Assembly: GCF_000373245.1 (NCBI RefSeq)
Contig: NZ_KB890750.1
Coordinates: forward strand, 772,030-832,219
From: Echinicola pacifica DSM 19836
GTDB taxonomy: Bacteria; Bacteroidota; Bacteroidia; Cytophagales; Cyclobacteriaceae
Length of the DNA: 60,190 nt
Reading direction: 5' to 3'
Of this stretch, positions 31,570-38,380 are shown one piece after another (position 1 is the first letter of the stretch; every line of letters starts with the position of its first letter). The notes beneath the pieces are model-generated. The model did no database searches. It was not told the origin of the DNA and worked only from the letters and a program-made list of their open reading frames with translations. The position numbers were made by a program, and so were the translations under genes.

Positions 31570-31773
31570 TTACCTGACCTCATCGAGGTCATAATCCTTC
31601 CCTATCCCCCAGCGCAGTAATTCATCTAATTCATAAACCTCCAAAGTGGCTAAGTCCTTCACCTGGAAATTATCTCTACCAATCTTTGCCATCACCTCCA
31701 GTTGGCGGTGTTCACCATAATTGGTAAAGGAATACACACGACCAACCCTCAAATTATCCAATGCAATTGCCAT
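31570..31773 (-). CDS. Small uncharacterised cytosolic protein
   Basis: The product has 67 residues, no signal peptide and no membrane segment. It reads as a compact beta-rich domain: LDNLRVGRVYSFTNYGEHRQLEVMAKIGRDNFQVKDLATLEVYELDELL split by short loops, then an acidic tail GKDYDLDEVR. Codon use and the balanced composition make it look like a real gene, and it resembles a type of small protein I have seen in other Bacteroidetes, although I cannot name a family. It is alone on the strand between two long spacers. The function is unknown. Confidence 0.65.
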   Translation of the reverse strand: MAIALDNLRVGRVYSFTNYGEHRQLEVMAKIGRDNFQVKDLATLEVYELDELLRWGIGKDYDLDEVR

Positions 31774-32214: not shown

Positions 32215-34107
32215 ATGACCACTGATAAAAAATTTATCATCGATTTCGACAGTACATTTACGCAAGTTGAGGCCTTGGATATTTTAGGAGAAATCAGCTT
32301 ACGAAATGATCCCCAAAGGGATGTAAAACTACAAGCCATAAAGGACATCACTGATCTTGGGATGGAAGGCAAAGTCACCTTGCGCGAGAGTCTGGAGAAG
32401 CGCATAGAGGTTCTCGGCGCCAATAAATCGCAGATTTCCGAGCTAGTGGAGGCCCTTAAGAAGAAAGTATCGAAGTCATTTCATCGTAATAAGGACTTTT
32501 TGCTTGAAAATGCGGACAATATTTATATTATTTCCAACGGATTCAAGGACTTCATCACCCCCGTGGTGGGACAGTATGGTATCAAAGCCGAGAATGTATA
32601 TGCCAATGAGTTTGTCTATGATGCCGATGGTAATATCACGGATTTTGACAGGGACAATTTACTTTCGAGAAATAATGGTAAGCCAGAAACCATCAAGACG
32701 CTGAACCTCGAAGGGGACGTATATGTTATTGGGGACGGATATACCGATTATGAAATCAAGGCCTCTGGGCTTGCTAATAAATTTTATGCTTTTGTAGAAA
32801 ATATAAATAGACCCAAAGTTTCATCCAAAGCCGATCATATCGCTCCAAGTTTAGATGAAATTTTGTATGTAAATAAGATGAACAAAAAATATAGCTATCC
32901 GAAAAGCCGCATCAATGTGCTGCTTTTAGAAAACGTCCACCCTATAGGTGTGGAGATCATGAAGCAAGAAGGCTACAATGTGGAAGTGGTCAGTTCTGCT
33001 ATGTCTGAAGAGGAACTATGTGAGAAAATCAAAAATGTCTCCATCATCGGTCTTCGCTCCAAGACACAAATCACCAAGAAAGTATTAGAAAATGCCAATA
33101 GGCTTATTGCTATTGGAGCATTCTGTATAGGCACCAACCAGATCGATCTGGAGACCTGTCAGGAAAAAGGAATTGCCGTATTCAATGCACCGTTTAGCAA
33201 TACGCGTTCTGTGGTAGAATTGGCGATTGCGGAACTTATATTCCTTATGAGAAATCTCCAGGACAATGCGGTAAAAATGCACCAAAGCATTTGGAATAAG
33301 TCAGCTTCCGGAAGTTTTGAGGTGAGAGGAAAGAAACTCGGTATTATAGGATATGGTAATATCGGTGCTCAGCTTTCAGTATTGGCGGAAAGCATGGGGA
33401 TGAATGTCTTCTATTACGATATCGTGGAGCGTCTGGCACTTGGTAATGCCACCAAAATTGACTCTTTAGACGAGTTATTGGAGACCTGCGATATGATCTC
33501 TCTTCATGTGGATGGCAGACCAGACAATAAGGATATTCTCAACAGAGAGAAGATCTTCAAAATGAAAAAAGGGGCTATTCTAGTTAACCTAAGCCGTGGA
33601 CATGTGGTGGAAGTACCCGCCCTTCGTGAGGCATTGGAGACAGGCCATCTTGCAGGTGCTGCGGTGGATGTATTCCCTTCAGAGCCCAAAAACAATGATG
33701 AGCCTTTTGAATCAGAATTGAAAGGATGTCCTAATACCATCCTGACACCTCATATCGGTGGTAGCACCCTGGAGGCGCAGGAAAACATCGCACAGTTTGT
33801 ACCAGGCAAAATCATCGAATACATCAATACTGGAAACACCTTCAACAGTGTAAACTTCCCAAATATCCAACTGCCATTCCTTAAGGATGCGCATCGATTG
33901 ATCCATATTCACCATAATGCTCCCGGAGTATTGGCGAAGATCAATCAGGTATTGGCGAATTATAAAATCAATATTGCGGGTCAGTACTTGAAGACGAATG
34001 AGAAGATCGGATATGTGATCACCGATATAGACAAGCAGTATTCCAATGATGTGATCGATGCCTTGAAGGAAATAGAAGGAACCATCAGGTTTAGAATATT
34101 ATATTAA
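32215..34107 (+). CDS. serA: Fused phosphoserine phosphatase / D-3-phosphoglycerate dehydrogenase
   Basis: This 630-residue protein joins two enzymes of serine synthesis. Residues 1-220 form a HAD phosphatase like SerB: the nucleophile pair D10/D12 in FIIDFDSTF, motif II IISNGF, the motif III lysine in NNGKPETIK, and motif IV VIGDGYTDYEI. Residues from about 235 form phosphoglycerate dehydrogenase: the NAD-binding GIIGYGNIGAQL near 377-388, LVNLSRGHVVE, and the catalytic His at 513 in LTPHIGGST. A C-terminal ACT domain (APGVLAKINQVLANYKINIAGQYL) could bind serine for feedback inhibition. All key residues of both halves are present, so both activities are plausible. The middle step, SerC, is not in the window. 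A terminator follows the stop. Confidence 0.92.
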   Translation: MTTDKKFIIDFDSTFTQVEALDILGEISLRNDPQRDVKLQAIKDITDLGMEGKVTLRESLEKRIEVLGANKSQISELVEALKKKVSKSFHRNKDFLLENADNIYIISNGFKDFITPVVGQYGIKAENVYANEFVYDADGNITDFDRDNLLSRNNGKPETIKTLNLEGDVYVIGDGYTDYEIKASGLANKFYAFVENINRPKVSSKADHIAPSLDEILYVNKMNKKYSYPKSRINVLLLENVHPIGVEIMKQEGYNVEVVSSAMSEEELCEKIKNVSIIGLRSKTQITKKVLENANRLIAIGAFCIGTNQIDLETCQEKGIAVFNAPFSNTRSVVELAIAELIFLMRNLQDNAVKMHQSIWNKSASGSFEVRGKKLGIIGYGNIGAQLSVLAESMGMNVFYYDIVERLALGNATKIDSLDELLETCDMISLHVDGRPDNKDILNREKIFKMKKGAILVNLSRGHVVEVPALREALETGHLAGAAVDVFPSEPKNNDEPFESELKGCPNTILTPHIGGSTLEAQENIAQFVPGKIIEYINTGNTFNSVNFPNIQLPFLKDAHRLIHIHHNAPGVLAKINQVLANYKINIAGQYLKTNEKIGYVITDIDKQYSNDVIDALKEIEGTIRFRILY

Positions 34108-34130
34108 ATCACTAGAAAAACCACTAAACC

Positions 34131-34172
34131 AAAGGAGAGGGAAATGATGATCATTTCTCTCTTTTTTTTTGA
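34131..34172 (+). terminator. Terminator of the serine-synthesis fusion gene
   Basis: A stem built from GAGAGGGAAATGA and TCATTTCTCTC, with a small bulge, is followed by ten Ts, just after the stop at 34107. Confidence 0.8.
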
Positions 34173-34179
34173 GTAAAAA

Positions 34180-34382
34180 AAATAAGACCCGGGCCTAAGA
34201 GTGTTACCAAACCCCTTTATAGACAAGATTTGAGCTGCCCTGACTTCGCAACCTTCCACTGTTATCCTGCTTCCGAAGAAACGAGGTCCCGACAGAATCG
34301 GGATGAGGCCTGGTTTTGAAAATAGGCTTCACTCGGCATTTTTGTTAATTGTGAAGTTGGAACATGTCTGTGACCCGAGCCT
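34180..34382 (-). ncRNA. Candidate structured RNA of about 200 nt (family not identified)
   Basis: This minus-strand stretch has no reading frame but behaves like an RNA gene. Its ends pair: GGCUCGGGUC (34381-34372) with GGCCCGGGUC (34195-34186), ten consecutive pairs including G-U. The next helix is UGUUCCAA (34364-34357) with UUGG-U-AACA (34210-34202). Internal hairpins are CUUCAC/GUGAAG (34356-34351, 34332-34327), CCCGA/UCGGG (34302-34298, 34292-34288), and a UUCG tetraloop near 34275. It ends in TTATTTTTTTT and has a good promoter. Size and closed ends resemble 6S RNA or a large SRP RNA, but I do not find the diagnostic SRP loop, a tmRNA tag or RNase P core, so I leave it unnamed. Confidence 0.55.
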
Positions 34383-34386
34383 AATG

Positions 34387-34418
34387 CAAATATACAAATA
34401 AGAATGGGGAATGGTAAA
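34387..34418 (-). promoter_or_regulatory. Promoter of the structured RNA
   Basis: On the minus strand TATATTTG (34394-34387) matches the TAnnTTTG -7 consensus. TTTA lies 20 bases upstream (34418-34415), at the -33 position. The predicted start falls at about 34381, exactly where the closing helix of the RNA begins. Confidence 0.6.
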
Positions 34419-34826
34419 TATTACCTTCATTCTTGGAATTCCCTTTTAGAACTCTTTGATATTCTGTGAAGAAAATACAAGATTAATGCCAGAGATGGGA
34501 TTTGCTTATCCAATTTGTTCGCATTAAATTGGTATAATGGATCAGAGCCAAAATCATGCAGTCTCTATTAATTTAATAGTCAGCGGATCAGGTCATCTAT
34601 ACAATAGCTTAATGCCCAAAATGCTCTATATAAAAAAAATAAGGCGGATAAAAACAACAAGATATTGCACCAAGCTGGTATTTCACTGGCAAATTTTAAA
34701 CATTACCCTTATATTCGCCTAAGATTAGAGAAGTCATAAATTTGCATTGAATTTATTTACAGATATAATTTTTAATTACTCTATCAAAAGAAGGTAGAGG
34801 AGAATCACTAAACAGCTGCTTAGGAC

Positions 34827-35753
34827 ATGTACCAAATTAAAAAACTGATCGTTTGCCTGGATCACACAGAAATGGACGTTACCCTGGTTAAGTTTGCATC
34901 GTTTATTGCAAAGATAAACCAGACTAAAAAAATCTACTTCACCAATGTGATCCGCAACCTTCAAATGCCAAAAGACATCCTAAAGGAATTCCCCAATTTG
35001 GTGGAAAACATGGTAGATGAAAGGAAAGGCCAAATGCAGGCTGTAGTAGAAAAACACTTTGACAAAAGTCATGAGGTAGAGTTGACCTATGTGGTCAAAG
35101 AAGGCCAACTATCCAAGAAGATATTGAAACTGGCGCATGAAAAATCAGCGGATATGATCCTGGTAGGTAGGAAGACCACCCTTGCAGGAAGTGGCGTGGT
35201 ATCGCAGCGACTGGCAAGAAGAGCCTCCTGCTCCCTGACCATCATCCCTGAGACCATCACTGCACCCAAGGTGGACAAAATACTCGTTCCCATTGACTTC
35301 TCCGACTACTCCAAAGACGCACTCGAAGAGGCCATCATGATCGCCGAAAGAAATGGCAAGCACGTCGAAATCGTATGCCAAAATGTATTCTCAGTACCTT
35401 CAGGATATCACCTTACCGGTAAGTCTTACGACGAATTTGCCGAGATTATGAAATCCAACTCAGAGGTAAACTACAAGAAATTCATTCGGAAAATAGATAC
35501 CAAGGACGTTAATATTACACCTATCTATACCGTGGATAATAATGATGATCCTGTGGAAGATATCATCAATATGGCTAAGGAACTTAAGGTCGATAGCATC
35601 GTAATTGGTGCTAAAGGTAGGACCGCCGCCACAGCCCTCTTCATCGGTAGCATCGCCGAGCGATTGATTCAACTCAACGAACAGTTTCCGCTCGTGGTCA
35701 CCCGACCAAAAGGTAAAAATGCTGGTATCCTTGACTATATCCTTGAAATTTAA
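34827..35753 (+). CDS. Tandem universal stress protein
   Basis: The 308-residue protein has two Usp domains in a row. The first begins IKKLIVCLDHTEMDVTLVKFA and ends near SCSLTIIPE (about residue 147). The second begins VDKILVPIDFSDYSKDALEEAI. The second half keeps the complete ATP-binding motif G-2x-G-9x-GS (GAKGRTAATALFIGS). The first has a degenerate version (GRKTTLAGSG), so only the second half is likely to bind nucleotide. Such proteins are cytosolic and linked to stress and energy status. The regulator gene begins 9 bases after its stop, so the two are probably one unit. Confidence 0.92.
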   Translation: MYQIKKLIVCLDHTEMDVTLVKFASFIAKINQTKKIYFTNVIRNLQMPKDILKEFPNLVENMVDERKGQMQAVVEKHFDKSHEVELTYVVKEGQLSKKILKLAHEKSADMILVGRKTTLAGSGVVSQRLARRASCSLTIIPETITAPKVDKILVPIDFSDYSKDALEEAIMIAERNGKHVEIVCQNVFSVPSGYHLTGKSYDEFAEIMKSNSEVNYKKFIRKIDTKDVNITPIYTVDNNDDPVEDIINMAKELKVDSIVIGAKGRTAATALFIGSIAERLIQLNEQFPLVVTRPKGKNAGILDYILEI

Positions 35754-36534: not shown

Positions 36535-37215
36535 TCAAATCAATAGTGCTCGGAGCTCTGTAATGGTTTCAAGAATATAATCGGGCTTGGCCAGGGCCAA
36601 TTGATCTCTGGTCTGAGCACCACTTAGCACTCCCACAGACAGCCCGCAACCCGCAGCTTTGGCCTCTTCTATATCAATGGCAGAATCGCCCGCCTTCAAC
36701 ACCAATTTTGGATCCTCAATCTGGGTGAGCTCCATGGCCTTTAGGATCATATCAGGATGAGGTCTTCCCCTCTCCACCTGATCAGAAGTCACCAATCCAT
36801 CGATCTGCTTACCTACTTCCCAGCCCAATTTCTTCACCAGCATCTCTGCGATTCGCTGGTCATAGCCAGTATTCAGGACCACTTTTATCCCTGCCTTATG
36901 TAGTGCTTCAAAGAGCTCTTCCACCCCCTCAAAAGTTTTGACGTTTAGGGTTTCATAGGCCTCTATCAATGAAGGCTTAAAATTCGCAAAGGCATGCTTT
37001 GCCTCCTCTTCTATCTCCGTAGAATCCGTACAAGCCGCCAAAGTATCAGTGATAGCCTGCAACTTCTCCTTACCAGCACCATGCTTCAACACCTCTTCCA
37101 GGGTCACCTTATACCCCAGATCCAATATCACCTGATGGACAGTTTTGTACACCACATTGTCCTCATCCACACTTGTGCCTGCCATATCAAATACGGCCAG
37201 TTTTATGCTTTTCAT
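36535..37215 (-). CDS. Phosphonatase-like HAD hydrolase (PhnX-like, TIGR03351 type)
   Basis: The 226-residue enzyme likely cleaves the carbon-phosphorus bond of phosphonoacetaldehyde, giving acetaldehyde and phosphate. The first HAD motif is FDMAGTSVDED: nucleophile D10 followed at +2 by Ala (A12) instead of the usual Asp. This DxA pattern is a mark of phosphonatases rather than ordinary HAD phosphatases. In the cap, HGAGKEKLQAI places K49 where phosphonatase has the Schiff-base lysine (MGxxKxxH). Later motifs are VVLNTGYDQRI, RPHPDMILKAMEL and KAGDSAIDIEEAKAAG. Its start lies one base past the end of the FAD-oxidase gene, so it is the last gene of that operon. Confidence 0.85.
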   Translation of the reverse strand: MKSIKLAVFDMAGTSVDEDNVVYKTVHQVILDLGYKVTLEEVLKHGAGKEKLQAITDTLAACTDSTEIEEEAKHAFANFKPSLIEAYETLNVKTFEGVEELFEALHKAGIKVVLNTGYDQRIAEMLVKKLGWEVGKQIDGLVTSDQVERGRPHPDMILKAMELTQIEDPKLVLKAGDSAIDIEEAKAAGCGLSVGVLSGAQTRDQLALAKPDYILETITELRALLI

Positions 37216-37216
37216 A

Positions 37217-38380
37217 TTATTTACTATTTAAAATACTTTTAATATTTTCCTTGGAAAAACCCGCGCTGCCTGTCATTCCTTTCCCGCCTATCCCGGTGAG
37301 AATTTGGATTGTATTACCTATGTTTTTTTGGAAGATATCCGATGTTTTACACTGAGAATACATACCCCACCACCTTTGGCCTATCTCATAGGTAGGAAGT
37401 TCAATAATCTTCCTGGCCTCAGCAATCATAAAATCATCAATGGCCATATCTAAGTCAAAGCCTAGAGTCTCCACAGAGGAAGCATCGGCATATTGATGGG
37501 AGTCCCCAATGATCACCGAACCGTCCTCCGCTTGCTTAAACAAAATATGCACGCCCCATTTTTTCTGAGGAGAGTTTTCGTTCTCCAGCGCTTTGATCGC
37601 TGCAAAACTAGGGCACTCTGCGAAGGCCTCATATCGGCGGATAGACCAGCCCGTCAATATTGATCCGGGAAGAGAGTATTCCTTCCCCTGAGAGATCGTT
37701 TTCATCATCTGGAGCTTGGAAACTTCCAAGTCACTATTGAGAAATATTTCTGGAAATAAAGCTTTGAAATCCCTGCCACTGCATACCAATGCTTTTGCAC
37801 CTAGAAAACAGGTCCCCCCAGCTGTATGAACCTCCACCTGACCATTGACCTCCTCACAATGTATCACGAGCTGGTTGGTCACTAAGCTTAAACCTAGGGA
37901 AGTCACCAGATAGTCCAGGAATTGGTGGATCATGCGATCAGGCTCCACGGTGACCTCATCCGGGAAATAAAGACCAGACCTTACATAATCGGATCTTAAT
38001 CCCGAAAATTTTGTAAGGCATTCCGTTTTGGACCAACGAATGGATGCGTAATCATTGGTTTTATTGATAGCACATAATTCGTCCAGCAGCGCTTCTTCCT
38101 GCTCATCAGAAGCCAAATATACAGAGCCATTCTGGCGAATGGAAATATCAGTAATTGCCTGGATTTCCTTATAGATCTTCAAGCTTTCCCTGCCATAGGC
38201 CTGCCACTTACTGTTCATTCCCGAAGGTACCACCTGCCCAAAATTCCTAACTGTGGCCTCCTGTGGCTGATAATCCTTCTCCACCATCAAGACGGTATAG
38301 CCCATCTTCAAGGCATGGTAGGCATGAAATGCACCGAGCACCCCAGCTCCTATTATTATAAGGTCATACTTGTTGTTCAT
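37217..38380 (-). CDS. FAD-dependent oxidoreductase, phosphonate-associated (TIGR03364/HpnW type)
   Basis: This 387-residue flavoenzyme belongs to the DadA/glycine-oxidase-like family. The FAD-binding fold starts at the N-terminus with YDLIIIGAGVLGAFHAYHALKMG and MVEKDYQP. The substrate half includes VRSGLYFPDEVTVEPDRM, and the C-terminal flavin contact is LTGIGGKGMTGSAGFSKENI. TIGR03364-type proteins are known to sit beside phosphonate genes. Here it lies between a transporter gene (17-bp overlap) and a PhnX-like hydrolase gene (1-bp gap). It could oxidise an aminoethylphosphonate-type amine to phosphonoacetaldehyde for the hydrolase, which is inference from family and context. Confidence 0.85.
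   Translation of the reverse strand: MNNKYDLIIIGAGVLGAFHAYHALKMGYTVLMVEKDYQPQEATVRNFGQVVPSGMNSKWQAYGRESLKIYKEIQAITDISIRQNGSVYLASDEQEEALLDELCAINKTNDYASIRWSKTECLTKFSGLRSDYVRSGLYFPDEVTVEPDRMIHQFLDYLVTSLGLSLVTNQLVIHCEEVNGQVEVHTAGGTCFLGAKALVCSGRDFKALFPEIFLNSDLEVSKLQMMKTISQGKEYSLPGSILTGWSIRRYEAFAECPSFAAIKALENENSPQKKWGVHILFKQAEDGSVIIGDSHQYADASSVETLGFDLDMAIDDFMIAEARKIIELPTYEIGQRWWGMYSQCKTSDIFQKNIGNTIQILTGIGGKGMTGSAGFSKENIKSILNSK

Follow-up and report, generated by a model that had tools for sequence, protein, structure and literature searches.

Locus and RNA gene

The window, a stretch of 60,190 nucleotides of contig NZ_KB890750.1 from Echinicola pacifica DSM 19836, carries a SerB-SerA fusion gene and a universal stress protein (usp) gene separated by a gap at 34108-34826, the interval that the first-pass annotation had singled out as explained by neither gene. 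Within this gap, an RNA gene of about 200 nt lies on the minus strand, and its parts can be mapped as follows (all models are described below).

32215-34107, plus strand: SerB-SerA fusion gene, with HAD phosphatase, phosphoglycerate dehydrogenase and ACT parts
34827-35753, plus strand: universal stress protein (usp) gene
34176-34382, minus strand: 6S-family RNA gene, ~200 nt (R2 matches, covariation, reciprocal model matches)
34415-34418, minus strand: -33-like element TTTA, which lies 20 nt ahead of the -7 box and is shared by every one of the 11 genus genomes
34387-34394, minus strand: -7 box TATATTTG of the TAnnTTTG type, the same in each of the 11 genomes of the genus (L001-L011)
34372-34382, minus strand: 5' strand of the closing stem P1, pairing with 34185-34195 (swap test, changes on both sides)
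34353-34364, minus strand: 5' strand of P2, the helix adjoining the bubble, pairing with 34202-34215 (swap tests; column counts weaker)
34335-34352, minus strand: 5' side of the central bubble, between the conserved P2 and P3; putative pRNA template by analogy
34324-34334, minus strand: 5' strand of P3 (GAGU, GCCU) of the internal arm, pairing with 34232-34240 (98.8 and 100% of cells paired)
34312-34315, minus strand: 5' strand of P4 (AACC), pairing with 34250-34253 (95.8% of cells paired)
34287-34303, minus strand: internal-arm hairpin 1 (93.4% of cells paired; both-side changes in 4 of 5 pairs)
34266-34286, minus strand: internal-arm hairpin 2, with a UUCG loop in E. pacifica (98.9% paired in the three pairs at its base, variable in the loop and upper stem)
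34246-34269, minus strand: conserved 24-nt core (CAGGATAACAGTGGAAGGTTGCGA), matched exactly in 37 genome-contig stretches
34250-34253, minus strand: 3' strand of P4 (GGUU) (pair counts, constrained fold)
34232-34240, minus strand: 3' strand of P3 (pair counts, constrained fold)
34216-34231, minus strand: 3' side of the central bubble, strongly conserved (AAAUCUUGUC...; invariant and near-invariant columns)
34202-34215, minus strand: 3' strand of P2 (swap tests, constrained fold)
34185-34195, minus strand: 3' strand of P1 (swap tests, pair counts, constrained fold)
34175-34182, minus strand: T-tract of eight T's, two bases past P1, the likely 3' end (from the sequence)

Judging from the helix, the promoter box and the T-tract, the gene would start near 34382/34381 and end in the T-tract near 34176. 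The first base of the ten-pair closing helix, at which the start had been predicted, was confirmed at 34382/34381, and the eight T's were found at 34182-34175, where a T-tract had been proposed as the 3' end. The earlier reading of a TAnnTTTG -7 box with a -33 element 20 bases away likewise holds at 34394-34387 and 34418-34415 of the minus strand. A passage of PMC7366714 gives the sigma-ABfr consensus as TAnnTTTG at -7 and TTTG near -33. The position of TATATTTG relative to the helix start is constant to within one base across the 11 genus genomes, and L012-L016, the relatives that follow, retain the box (as TATATTCG in L014); among more distant sequences, some (for example L019, L020, L027, L029 and L036) have it close to the start, and in others it is unrecognisable. 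The TTTA element has a weak consensus, and a sigma-70-type promoter scan also touches the site. From its -7 box, the promoter would be of the Bacteroidota (sigma-ABfr) type, and would drive transcription of the RNA gene. At the other end, a terminator scan picked out 34214-34191 of the minus strand, with the tail after it, as terminator-like, and the arrangement of P1 followed by T's recurs at the ten 6S-Flavo loci that we examined. On the plus strand, a near-perfect palindromic hairpin with nine T's follows the serB-serA gene at 34134-34170; it was seen by eye and is not in the output of the terminator scan.

The setting of the RNA gene also bears on a reading in which the RNA serves one of its neighbours, serB-serA or usp, as a cis-acting element or an antisense RNA. 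Within 1.5-kb flanks, the only range counted, serA (the fusion or whatever part of it the flank includes) accompanies the RNA at 17 of 31 loci, and usp does so at 19 of 31, as such a role would suggest; however, neither gene is within these flanks at 9 of the 31 loci, the RNA points away from usp, and its T-tract lies before the serA coding region. We regard such a role as very improbable.

Conservation and covariation of a rod-shaped fold

A BLAST search with the interval gave matches in 35 of 59 genomes at E <= 0.01; 31 of these match the RNA by coordinates, all of them from the family of E. pacifica, and the other four (G038, G044, G055, G056) have matches of 28-37 bases only. The RNA is present in all 11 genus genomes, E. 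pacifica included, at an identity of at least 83%, and four genomes have a second short BLAST match, each to the query tail outside the RNA. A model built from 29 BLAST-found sequences, without any Rfam-found sequence (R2), has a single match each in 137 of 148 sampled family genomes, representing 79 of 84 genera, and no match in the other 11 genomes. Three genera are without an R2 match in any sampled genome (g6: G015, G359; g175: G310, G378, G410; g181: G316, G381, G413), as are two further genera in the single genome sampled from each (G312, G342); in such genera, either the RNA has been lost or it is too diverged for R2. When 148 genomes were drawn from the order, 23 had an R2 match, 12 of them outside the family. 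The stretches with the exact 24-nt core are titled Echinicola, Cyclobacterium, Algoriphagus, Lunatimonas, Litoribacter and others, and three of them are MAGs titled Spirosoma fluviale.

In the minimum free energy (MFE) fold, both ends of the RNA are closed by ten pairs, the end-closing helix that had been read from the window sequence. With an MFE of -62.9 kcal/mol against -51.99 (sd 4.3) for shuffles (z -2.54; 5 of 200 shuffles as stable), single-sequence folding is only moderately unusual, and the comparative evidence is decisive. Enforcing the conserved pairs yields a rod at -61.4 kcal/mol, in which P1 and P2 are followed by a central bubble (34352-34335 and 34231-34216, 16-18 nt per side), then by P3, P4 and two hairpins; six further weak pairs are possible inside the bubble of the E. 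pacifica sequence in the constrained fold. This rod costs 1.5 kcal/mol over the MFE. The outer helix of the first-pass annotation is right, and one local MFE hairpin is not the conserved state. That hairpin, CUUCAC/GUGAAG, is lost in more distant relatives, where CUUCAC becomes CCUAAC and GUGAAG is mostly kept. The UUCG loop noted earlier is present, but it sits in a hairpin whose loop and upper stem vary in relatives. The whole is a rod of ~200 nt with a closing stem, a central bubble and an internal arm.

The pairs of this rod covary. On a MAFFT alignment of 31 sequences (A1; L030 and L032 left out, likewise from the pair counts), RNAalifold found 28 pairs, 20 of which have both sides changed in at least one sequence. 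On the same alignment, with P1 and P2 written out by hand and one duplicate row merged to leave 30 distinct sequences, 36 pairs were counted: 89.4% of cells are paired versus 81.2 in shuffles, both-side changes occur in 23 of the 36 pairs versus 13.7, and covariation is 0.324 versus 0.189, each value being reached by none of 500 shuffles. Pairing falls to 27-59% when the partners are slid by one to three columns. Compensatory changes in the ten-pair helix, proposed as a check by the first-pass annotation, were found throughout, with all ten counted pairs of P1 changed on both sides. For P2, the structure-blind alignment gives 84% paired cells and both-side changes in one of seven pairs, counts that are weaker partly because linkers are of unequal length and the register slips in some rows.

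We therefore used strand-swap tests, which avoid the register problem of the alignment, although their permutation controls ignore the relatedness of the sequences. Among 31 sequences (P2 of L017 mis-anchored), own strands pair at -19.34 kcal/mol for P1 and -7.85 for P2, compared with -10.99 and -6.22 for permuted strands, and none of 10000 permutations did as well in either case. With 14 Rfam-found loci added (45 sequences; L071 and L075 mis-anchored), the values are -20.47 versus -10.26 for P1 and -11.10 versus -8.00 for P2, again with 0 of 10000 permutations. The closing stem and P2 thus both covary in the swap tests, with column counts that are strong for P1 and weaker for P2. The strand types of P2 vary from group to group and match inside each: the family of E. 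pacifica has AAACUUC/GAGGUUU and AAACCU/AGGUUU, and most loci of the family labelled f25, like the Bacteroidales-1 loci, have AAACUC/GAGUUU. The alignment is varied enough to tell sequence-fixed from pairing-fixed parts, and lists 34 invariant columns: the 3' bubble side and the inner arm core are fixed in sequence, the closing stem in pairing only.

These comparisons leave very little room for the interval being a chance structure, a dispersed repeat or a short-protein gene. The z-score is only -2.54, and 51-aa and 42-aa minus-strand open reading frames run across the RNA interval, both of which would suit such an origin; the single match per genome in 137 family genomes, the covarying pairs and the model matches across the phylum all argue against it. 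Chance structure is refuted by the covariation. A dispersed repeat, named at the outset as an outcome that would overturn the RNA reading, was rejected on finding one match in the E. pacifica genome by both BLAST and R2. The other such outcome, a lack of conserved pairing in related genomes, was not seen either, the pairs being preserved through both-side changes. A coding ORF was rejected since the length of the RNA varies by non-multiples of three in the alignment and conservation follows the pairs.

Homology to the 6S RNA families of Bacteroidota

At gathering cut-offs, Rfam gave no match in the whole window. With the threshold opened for 33900-34700, eight matches appeared, the best of them to 6S-Flavo (RF01685), which aligns end to end at 34357-34209 on the minus strand with 23.9 bits against a cut-off of 85 (E 0.7); Bacteroidales-1 (RF01693) also matches end to end, at 34377-34181 on the minus strand, with 16.8 bits against a cut-off of 60 (E 2.4). 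In a filtered search of the whole 5.4-Mb genome (G000), of a kind that misses some weak matches, the RNA locus is the sole 6S-Flavo match at E <= 10 (23.2 bits, E 1.63). Any 6S-Flavo match at this threshold was found in 25 family genomes. In 19 of these, a match falls on the RNA locus itself, located by BLAST or by the model; in the other six it lies elsewhere (G009, G012, G020, G022, G031, G036). None of the 59 genomes, E. pacifica included, reaches the 6S-Flavo cut-off. The general 6S model (RF00013), which is above cut-off in 4 of 14 control genomes, has no match in the E. pacifica genome and two weak matches in the 59 genomes, none above cut-off. Of the Rfam comparisons proposed earlier, those with 6S-Flavo and Bacteroidales-1 thus pointed to the RNA locus with scores under their cut-offs, and that with RF00013 came back empty in this genome; no 6S model among RF01685, RF01693 and RF00013 matches at its cut-off. 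Because the cut-offs are the curators' settings for those families, the sub-cut-off scores lower the claim to RF01685 or RF01693 membership as defined, not the claim to homology. An Rfam scan at cut-offs of six fetched loci gave a Bacteroidales-1 match in one of them (L057) only.

The reverse search, from this RNA to the 6S loci of the phylum, is significant. A model of 31 sequences (R1), two of which (L031, L036) had been found via 6S-Flavo and make it slightly circular, matched 28 of 247 phylum genomes at E <= 0.01: all seven own-family genomes drawn, 18 of f25, one of f29 and two with partial matches at E ~0.009, about as many as expected by chance. From the Rfam model that each matches, f25 would be Flavobacteriaceae and f29 a family of Bacteroidales. 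All 18 R1 places in f25 overlap 6S-Flavo places, and the R1 place in f29 overlaps the strongest Bacteroidales-1 match; R1 is without a match in 8 of 26 f25 genomes positive with 6S-Flavo and in one of two Bacteroidales-1 genomes above cut-off.

R2, which leaves both 6S-Flavo-derived sequences out, was tried on 14 of 17 loci fetched with 6S-Flavo or Bacteroidales-1, namely ten 6S-Flavo loci and two Bacteroidales-1 loci above cut-off and two loci below; L085 (the same place as L079) and L086 and L087 (from the own family of E. pacifica) were left out. For all 14, its top-ranked match was the right place, with E from 1.2e-6 to 4.7e-4 in 43,810 bases searched and E 2.1 for the next-best match, model E-values being rough. 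Conversely, Bacteroidales-1 matches R1 places in two own-family genomes (G168, G249) at E ~0.005, and 6S-Flavo and Bacteroidales-1 overlap each other in G070, G111 and G152 (loci L083, L079 and L084). By these sequence matches, 6S-Flavo and Bacteroidales-1, for which Rfam lists no clan, look like one family. The conserved locus, the covarying rod and the homology to recognised 6S families of Bacteroidota, the last by the R2 ranking and the reverse searches, are shown by this analysis.

Another stable housekeeping RNA, whether RNase P, SRP RNA or tmRNA, would fit the size, the closed ends and the own promoter in a general way. The gene for each was found above cut-off on another contig (C19 for RNase P, C2 for SRP, C3 for tmRNA), and no Rfam match to any of them lies at the RNA locus, in agreement with the first-pass annotation, which had seen no hallmarks of the three; this identity is refuted as far as the Rfam models go, and we give it next to no weight. 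Since R2 ranks all 14 loci correctly and RNase P, SRP RNA and tmRNA lie elsewhere, the RNA is best read as the 6S RNA of its lineage. Very probably it is the 6S RNA of the Echinicola/Cyclobacteriaceae lineage, a divergent homologue of 6S-Flavo and Bacteroidales-1, and the earlier leading guess of 6S RNA, made from size and closed ends, is thereby supported by homology, through the weak but sole 6S-Flavo match and the significant reverse search.

A homologue by descent could still have taken on a new role, such as that of an mRNA base-pairing regulator or a protein sponge, and the 34 invariant columns exceed the needs of a purely structural role. We consider a changed role unlikely, given that the rod is preserved in full, along with both sides of the bubble and the type of promoter, and that no other locus in the genome reaches a 6S cut-off.

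Likely function and relation to known 6S RNAs

6S RNA ties up RNA polymerase once cells stop growing, and it acts on the whole transcription programme. The box of the E. pacifica gene suggests that a sigma-ABfr-type promoter would drive a transcript of about 200 nt ending in the T-tract. The RNA folds into a rod in which P1 and P2 make up the closing stem, P3, P4 and two hairpins form the internal arm, and the central bubble lies in between. If it works as its counterparts in other bacteria do, the rod would resemble an open promoter to RNA polymerase carrying the primary sigma factor, and may retain the enzyme when nutrients are scarce. Once nucleotides are available again, the enzyme would transcribe the bubble's 5' side into a short product RNA (pRNA) reaching the 5' strand of P2, so that P2 may open and the polymerase be freed; by position, the pRNA could start opposite the U's at about 34348/34347. 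Polymerase binding, pRNA synthesis and a growth-phase role are thus proposed by analogy with other bacteria. Within the phylum, passages of PMC7366714 describe a 6S RNA with two classes of pRNA in B. thetaiotaomicron, as well as the unusual primary sigma factor and promoter of Bacteroidota, and part of PMC9723704 names 6S RNA among the RNAs detected in F. psychrophilum.

The RNA can be set beside three known groups. It shares with 6S-Flavo (RF01685) the same order of conserved blocks, a P2 adjoining the bubble, the inner-arm helices, P1 followed by T's and reciprocal model matches; in contrast, the Rfam model of 108 positions covers the inner part only, stopping about 30 nt before either end of the R1 match in the genomes that both models find, and the apical part is longer in the E. 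pacifica RNA (149 nt matched to the 108 positions). With Bacteroidales-1 (RF01693; 6S-Bacteroidales suggested), it aligns over the full length and shares the ACCGAG and CUCAAAUC-UGUC blocks at the bubble together with P1 and P2, whereas the sequence of the internal arm differs. Canonical 6S RNA (RF00013; E. coli SsrS and B. subtilis 6S-1) resembles it in being a rod of ~200 nt with a closing stem, a bubble and an internal arm, going by a passage of PMC8876501 that describes 6S RNAs as rods of this length with a central bubble and two arms; its model is without a match in the E. pacifica genome, however, and the likeness is one of anatomy. In the relevant part of PMC2864571, 6S-flavo (Bacteroidetes) and Bacteroidales-1 are given as separate motifs. 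Among the literature matches listed, no title concerned a Cytophagales 6S RNA, and an earlier listing is possible in the 6S dissemination survey of Wehner et al. 2014, which PMC7366714 cites.

A broader proposal is that all Bacteroidota 6S RNAs form one phylum-specific family, with bubble and arms shaped to the unusual primary sigma factor, not to one of the sigma-70 kind, and possibly with a release switch in the 3' strand of P2. As a whole, we find it doubtful: its one-family part, covering 6S-Flavo, Bacteroidales-1 and the Cytophagales group, is supported, and the tests of sigma-specific mimicry and of the switch were negative or unspecific. In the supposed switch, the 3' strand of P2, once freed, would form a local hairpin by pairing with a near-copy of the 5' strand of P2 that lies downstream. 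When the second half was shuffled, a release hairpin as good arose in 0 of 200 cases for the 31 own-family sequences and in 2 of 200 for ten f25 sequences; own halves were no better than swapped ones, with permutations as good in 5777 of 10000 (own family), 9605 of 10000 (f25), 3273 of 10000 (all 45 sequences) and 1421 of 10000 (15 divergent sequences), so that these tests give no pair-specific evidence for the hairpin. A TAnnTTTG mimic in the 3' bubble was unsupported among the 31 sequences, with a mean best match of 3.77 of 6 versus 3.57 in shuffles.

The RNA is likely a divergent relative within the known 6S kind, ordinary in function and useful as a finding. A recognisable 6S RNA through Cyclobacteriaceae closes an annotation gap in a set of genomes in which 0 of 59 reach the 6S-Flavo cut-off, and the group of the E. 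pacifica RNA connects two Rfam families for which no clan is listed.

Two minor observations concern other parts of the window. A 67-aa ORF at 31570-31773 on the minus strand has no Pfam or NCBIfam match. At 36535-38380, also on the minus strand, a phosphonatase-like hydrolase (TIGR03351) adjoins a TIGR03364 FAD-dependent oxidoreductase, both above cut-off, and the two genes are probably a phosphonate-type catabolic pair.
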